Positions 9,582-10,508 of a DNA stretch of 64,000 nt are shown here, piece after piece. Source of the DNA: Sneathiellales bacterium. GTDB lineage: Bacteria > Pseudomonadota > Alphaproteobacteria > JANQFL01. The translations under genes and the position numbers were made by a program. The notes beneath the pieces were generated by a model. That model was not told the origin of the DNA. It saw nothing but the letters and a program-made list of their open reading frames with translations, and did no database searches. The stretch lies in NCBI GenBank assembly GCA_028277845.1, contig JANQFL010000105.1, positions 1-64,000 on the forward strand, in the 5' to 3' direction. Numbering within the stretch: the first letter of the stretch is position 1; each line of letters begins with the position of its first letter.

Positions 9582-10508
9582 TCAGCGGTCGGCGGCCAGC
9601 TTGACCCCGAAGCCGACGAACACCGCTCCGGTGGCCCGCAGGATGGCCGCCTGAAACCGGTTGTAGGTGCGGGCAACGGGCGCGACCCCCATGAACACCG
9701 CGACCAATCCGTACCAGACGAACGCCATGACCACGACGATGGCGATCAACAGGCCGTGGAACCACAGCGGCGCACTGGCGGGCACGGCGACGGCGAACAG
9801 GCTGGTGAAGAACGCCGCCGCCTTGGGATTGCTCAAGTCGGTCACGATCCCGCGCAACAACGACCGAAATCCGCTGCCCGAATACGCGGCGGCCGCGGCG
9901 GGTCCCACGCTTGACGCCGTGGCATGGCCGGCGGCGCGGATCATCAAGATACCGGCGACGATCAGATAGGTGGCGCCGATGAGCCGCACCACATGGTAGA
10001 GCCATCCCGCTTCCTGAAACAACAGGGCGAGACCGGCGAGGCTGGCGCCCGCCCACACCGTCGTGCCTAGATCAATTCCTCCTTAGATGGAATCATTCTG
10101 ACGGAGCGCATTGGCGCCAAGGCCAAGGCTGGCGCTGACGGCCATACCGGGGGTATGGCCGAGACGGCAGCCGCCGGATTTGGCGCCAAGACGCCCGTCC
10201 CACAAGAACGCAATGGGGGTTTCCGAGCGGGCGCCCCCCACGGCGTCAGACGGCTTTCGCGATGCCCGGCATCGCGCGGCCCCGTCTTCCTGGTGGATGG
10301 GCAGGCCGCTCGAGAAACAGAATGGATTCCATCTAAAGAGGAATTGCTCTAGCCCGACACCCGCGGCCACCAGCAAGCCGTGACGCCTGGACTGGGAGAC
10401 CGACGCATGGGCCGTGACCAGGAAATTGGGGCCCGGACTGACGACGGTAATCAACCAAACGGCGGTCACGGTCGTCAGGCTGGTCCACAGGGCGGGTTCC
10501 CACGTCAT
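9582..10508 (-). pseudogene. LysE/RhtB-family amino-acid exporter, split by a MITE
   Basis: Reading from 10508, the first 53 codons encode a typical LysE N-terminus (WLITVVSPGPNFLVTAHASV, then LLVAAGVGL). The MITE then enters and brings a TAA at 10083-10085. The remainder of the protein resumes at GTTVWAGASLAGLALLFQEAG and runs to 9582. Removing 282 bases (element plus one CTAG) restores a continuous 214-residue exporter in the same frame, the normal length for the family. As it stands the product would lose its membrane helices after the first. The downstream piece could start at the GTG at 10058 but would lack the N-terminal helix, so the gene is probably dead. Confidence 0.88.
10071..10348. 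mobile_element. 278-bp MITE with imperfect terminal inverted repeats and CTAG target duplication
   Basis: The left end begins ATCAATTCCTCCTTAGATGG and the right end, read on the opposite strand, begins AGCAATTCCTCTTTAGATGG. The matching continues for about 30 bases to ATTCTG. CTAG flanks both ends (10067-10070 and 10349-10352). The interior codes for nothing recognisable and carries two perfect hairpins: 10140-10160 (arms GGCCATACC/GGTATGGCC, 3-base loop) and 10258-10276 (arms CGCGATGC/GCATCGCG, 3-base loop). A 4-bp CTAG duplication is known for part of the IS5 family, so an IS5-group transposase elsewhere in the genome is a reasonable inferred driver. The right end of a second copy is at 1-98. 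Confidence 0.88.

Follow-up and report, generated by a model that had tools for sequence, protein, structure and literature searches.

The window analyzed here is the whole 64,000-nucleotide stretch at positions 1 to 64,000 of contig JANQFL010000105.1 of a Sneathiellales bacterium (assembly GCA_028277845.1). In this window, a LysE/RhtB-type exporter gene, lysE, is divided into two parts by a short insert (Table 1). After excision of 282 bases, corresponding to the 280-bp element and one TA, we obtained a joined product of 214 amino acids with no stop, reading ...AAGVGL-GTTVWAG... at the junction. The joined protein matched the Pfam LysE family (PF01810) over positions 1-191 of 193 with 117.9 bits, and the separate halves scored 24.2 bits (positions 1-38) and 79.4 bits (positions 40-191). 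An initial annotation of this DNA had described the insertion as frame-restoring. Removal of the 282 bases does restore the frame, but the interrupted open reading frame itself (141 amino acids) traverses the greater part of the element before a TAA in the distal inverted repeat ends it.

Table 1. Features of the interrupted lysE locus (positions in the window).
Feature	Position	Strand	Remarks
lysE 3' part	9582..10067	-	Pfam LysE 40-191; otherwise intact
Target-site TA, copy 1	10068..10069	.	Within the preferred target CTAG, 10067-10070
MITE, very probably IS630-type, non-autonomous, without transposase gene	10070..10349	+	280 bp
Left terminal inverted repeat	10070..10097	+	GATCAATTCCTCCTTAGATGGAATCATT; its GATC is a mutated GAGC tip
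Interior hairpin arm 1, conserved	10092..10199	+	Match to covariance model R1, 109 bits
Interior hairpin arm 2	10218..10317	+	Predicted fold; cross-genus alignment weaker
Right terminal inverted repeat	10322..10349	-	Reverse complement GAGCAATTCCTCTTTAGATGGAATCCAT
Target-site TA, copy 2	10350..10351	.	
lysE 5' part	10352..10508	-	N-terminal residues; Pfam LysE 1-38

The insert shows the features of a MITE, being short, with terminal inverted repeats, no transposase gene and numerous dispersed copies. The termini form an inverted repeat of 28 nt that is 93% complementary, with the arms 230 nt apart. These results agree with the initial annotation, which had recognized inverted termini of about 30 bases, no transposase nearby and a MITE splitting lysE at an exact insertion site; the size of 278 bp given there is corrected to 280 bp for the element proper. 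Insertion at residues 53-54 would stop the frame within the element and disable the gene, and the exporter function was presumably lost. A recent event is plausible, since the remaining lysE sequence is intact. Taken by itself, the insertion in lysE is nothing out of the ordinary for a MITE that inactivates a gene.

To place the element in its genome, we searched the whole assembly (5.39 Mb in 124 contigs). At least 40 element-sized or partial matches were recovered at 83-100% identity, and the terminus pattern matched 126 times compared to 0 for a reversed-pattern control, in support of the dispersed copies that the initial annotation had anticipated. As each copy has two ends, the 126 termini suggest roughly 60 or more copies. 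The addition of 282 bases preserves the length of lysE modulo 3, as would an ancestral or lineage-specific part of the gene. We consider such an origin extremely improbable, because of the dispersed matches, of the stop inside the insert and of a Pfam LysE domain that is continuous only without it. In addition, 213 plasmid records contain LysE-type homologues whose alignment covers at least 80% of the joined protein, so that the 282 bases are not an ancestral part of lysE, as the initial annotation also held.

Many contigs of the assembly terminate inside MITE copies, illustrating how these repeats fragment short-read assemblies. No IS interior was found behind the terminal inverted repeat (TIR) at the contig ends; all listed ends run into the same two MITE interior sequences. 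Among the other copies with spanning open reading frames, no domain crossed the junction in the seven peptides tested. Several individual copies were also noted. At L015 (1503-1770), the left arm belongs to the common subfamily and the right arm to the GAGCGTTTCATCC subfamily, and this hybrid copy suggests recombination between MITE copies. Further arm-matched TIR subfamilies (GAGCATGCCGCGCC... and GAGCATGTTTCCCC...) with the same interior occur in the same genome at L023 and L024, near 1501-1743. The L024 copy (contig C42) separates two neighbouring genes for branched-chain amino-acid permeases and could affect their co-transcription.

We then compared the flanks of the copies. Thirteen complete copies of the Sneathiellales genome are flanked by TA on both sides, except for one TG and one left flank cut by a contig end. 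Complete copies have the form TA/GAGC...GCTC/TA, preceded by C or T and followed by A or G. In at least four of them, C-TA is combined with TA-A or T-TA with TA-G; such flanks are incompatible with a 4-bp duplication, and only TA is duplicated. The target is YTAR, with a preference for CTAG, and only its TA is duplicated. At lysE, CTAG stands at 10067-10070 and at 10349-10352, bordering the insert, as first described. The exact CTAG duplication proposed from these two motifs was not upheld, since only TA is common to the flanks at non-CTAG copies; at lysE itself, duplications of TA and of CTAG are indistinguishable because the target there is CTAG. When 83 complete copies from several genomes were considered, TA was present at 71 of the left and 66 of the right ends. 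In several copies (L118, L119, L124, L129, L135 and others), CA, GA or TG replaces TA at one end only, possibly through mutation or a looser target. Empty sites were also recovered, R. brockwellii and R. indicum carrying a single CTAG where R. johnstonii 3841 has a related element. A different short palindrome starting TAGAGCATGATG..., another TAGAGC-ended repeat, is found at this Rhizobium insertion site, near the element or the empty site (L094, L097, L098 and L100).

Duplication of TA at a CTAG-like target is typical of the IS630/Tc1-mariner group. Two MITE-bearing genomes contain DDE_3 elements of 1,054-1,055 bp (TAs included) with the ends TAGAGC...GCTCTA, and a protein search recovered relatives in 973 plasmid records, one of them annotated as ISRm10-1. 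Among the plasmid IS630 elements fetched, including this ISRm10-1, seven of nine had both TA/GAGC tips, spaced as expected, and the right tip was present in all nine. When the MITE arms were scored against a profile of the IS630 ends, with the shared GAGC excluded, they reached 8.4 compared to -21.5 ± 2.2 for shuffled arms (0 of 2000 shuffles reached the observed value). The match of the termini to the IS630 family is well supported. No DDE_3 (IS630) transposase was found in the Sneathiellales assembly, where the breaks at repeats make either loss or an assembly gap conceivable. The genomes G183, with 26 copies, and G122, with 12, had none either, and none of the IS630 elements examined, all from other genomes, had termini identical to those of the lysE copy.

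The initial annotation had instead placed the element in the IS5 group. An IS5/IS427-group MITE with a 4-bp CTAG duplication would fit the CTAG target at lysE and the presence of two CTAG-flanked IS5-like elements in the genome. We regard this origin as very unlikely: the non-CTAG copies preclude a 4-bp repeat, the two resident IS5-like elements that were checked have ends (GGCTGACTCGACATTC and CAGGCTGCTGAAAAAGT) unlike those of the MITE, and the IS630 elements do match. Overall, the insert is very probably a non-autonomous MITE whose movement depends on a transposase acting in trans, supplied by an ISRm10-1-like member of the IS630 family, and the lysE copy would have been moved in this way. 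An enzyme of this group (Tc1/mariner-type, DDE) would bind the GAGC-tipped inverted ends and put the element into the TA of a YTAR site, with CTAG favoured and TA duplicated.

Some IS elements were observed in their own right. On contig C60 of the Sneathiellales genome, an IS5-like element with the ends CTAGCAGGCTGCTGAAAAAGT adjoins a MITE copy (L082, 264-284 and 1778-1798); as they abut at a common CTAG, both use one target motif. A perfect inverted repeat of 30 bp on contig C23, which may be a terminator stem, contains at a CTAG an IS5/IS427-like element whose transposase is encoded in two ORFs (L083, 1442-2383). Elsewhere, the 1.8-Mb genome G076 carries IS630 and IS5 transposases as dozens of broken fragments and is possibly undergoing reduction.

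We further analyzed the distribution of the element in the class. A plasmid search revealed a full-length relative, 65% identical, in Aminobacter, and from this sequence onward relatives were found in Phyllobacterium, Rhizobium and Sinorhizobium. The Rhizobium element independently matched the Sneathiellales genome (E 6e-11). A sequence-level search of 58 class genomes gave no match outside the Sneathiellales genome, and scanning 385 class genomes with the TIR pattern yielded no more than two near matches; a covariance model was required to reveal the family. The model of interior arm 1 detected it in 12 of the 385 class genomes, representing 11 genera and 11 families with the Sneathiellales genome included, and four of these 12 genomes had 12-26 matches each. 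The same architecture of about 270-280 bp is present in the 11 sampled genera and in rhizobial plasmids. In GTDB contigs, the TIR-pattern scan returned only two 54-bp pure palindromes from one Baikal deep-lake MAG (L080, 6109-6163; L081, 3716-3770), which carry the same GAGC tips, have ends mostly flanked by TA and apparently represent the outer stem without the interior. A known RNA family was rejected, as only two chance-level Rfam matches were obtained, none over the element interior, and a phage origin gave no meaningful match.

The interior of the element includes a hairpin of about 100 nt kept through many compensatory changes. The copy in the window folds with a z-score of -9.3 relative to shuffled sequences. 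In a 13-sequence cross-genus alignment, 96.8% of the cells were paired and two-sided changes were observed at 28 of 63 pairs; 0 shuffles reached the observed values and slid controls fell well short. In arm 1, pairing over 57 copies was 97.7% for helix 1 and 95.1% for helix 2, and 14 of the 18 pairs in these helices had changed on both sides; the covariation score was 0.444 compared to 0.141 for shuffled and at most 0.112 for slid controls. The 57-copy alignment was fitted to the structure model, and the independent 13-sequence alignment (A1), which agrees with it, is the safer support. Such compensatory conservation of the interior is unusual for a passive MITE.

The outer stems diverge strongly among lineages and among copies of one genome, yet stay paired: the outer arms differ by 1-2 mismatches in 18 within a copy and by 4-8 between copies of one genome. 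This matching is explained by one transposase binding both ends, which leaves the interior pairing unexplained. An argument for structural selection from the outer stem alone was therefore dropped, transposase specificity accounting for it.

Considering the interior, we tentatively entertain the idea that, with mobility explained by IS630 transposition, this part of the element also serves as a folded, functional module of RNA or DNA under selection, paired with different IS630-like ends by lineage. This reading would supplement the IS630 explanation and not replace it. The arm 1 pairing and covariation over the 57 copies, the same core in 11 genera, the low fold z-score and an agreement of outer arms far better within than between copies speak in its favour. 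However, no Rfam match lies inside the element, template switching at quasi-palindromes yields paired changes without selection, matched outer arms are expected anyway with one transposase on both ends, and the 57 copies were aligned to the structure itself. Both selection on the fold and neutral quasi-palindrome correction could produce the interior pairing seen in the alignments. Slightly more doubtful still is the wider proposal that the interior might be a mobile, selected, structured nucleic-acid module, conserved across the Alphaproteobacteria and borrowing its TIRs from the IS630-type element that happens to be active in a given lineage.

We compared the family with repeats described previously. 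RUP of Streptococcus pneumoniae, 107 bp long and probably mobilised by IS630-Spn1 (Delihas review, PMC2229807), is likewise a short non-coding repeat with inverted ends, a TA target, a high copy number and a proposed trans-mobilisation by IS630, but the family at the lysE site is about 280 bp long, has two interior arms and extends over many alphaproteobacterial genera. The Correia/NEMIS repeats share TA at both termini, inverted ends, a predicted folded transcript and dispersed copies; they differ in their size (107/155 bp) and their host, Neisseria, and that review (PMC2229807) does not report for them a branched interior of this kind that covaries across genera. The CIR repeats of Caulobacter and Brucella (Chen and Shapiro, 2003, as summarized in PMC2229807) are about 110 bp long with a conserved GANTC and no terminal inverted repeat, and are reported there only as intergenic. 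As there presented, they resemble our element in being alphaproteobacterial, with a terminal TA and two folded arms joined by a linker, whereas the MITE has paired ends, is about 280 bp long and, in this copy, is intragenic in lysE. GANTC is present in the window copy but absent from the Phyllobacterium and Sinorhizobium members, so identity with the CcrM/GANTC-associated CIR was rejected; with GANTC unconserved, pairing ends and an intragenic copy, the element is not a CIR as defined in PMC2229807.

The ISRm10-1-like IS630 elements share the TA/GAGC...GCTC/TA tips, similar ends of about 30 bp and CTAG/YTAR targets, but measure about 1,042-1,053 bp with a transposase gene, and such an IS is not an evident source of the MITE interior. 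Rhizobia also harbour the RIME repeats, reportedly described by Osteras et al. in 1995. RIMEs are presented as palindromic intergenic repeats occurring by dozens in rhizobial genomes (PMC2573895); going by this description only, the Rhizobium copies may be, or overlap with, RIMEs.

Starting from one insertion in lysE, the analysis led to a class-wide repeat family with a likely mobiliser group, the ISRm10-1-like IS630 elements. According to the 2007/2008 Delihas review (PMC2229807), RUP was the only bacterial repeat of this type whose ends had been matched to an IS; in the present family this link is directly testable. If the interior is indeed a selected module, the ends would change while the fold stays, opposite to the usual MITE, whose ends are kept while its interior drifts. 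The family, with its conserved, covarying interior and its changing ends, is a less usual variant. The paired changes also allow asking if the interiors of MITEs are folds kept by selection or arise as a by-product when palindromes mutate.
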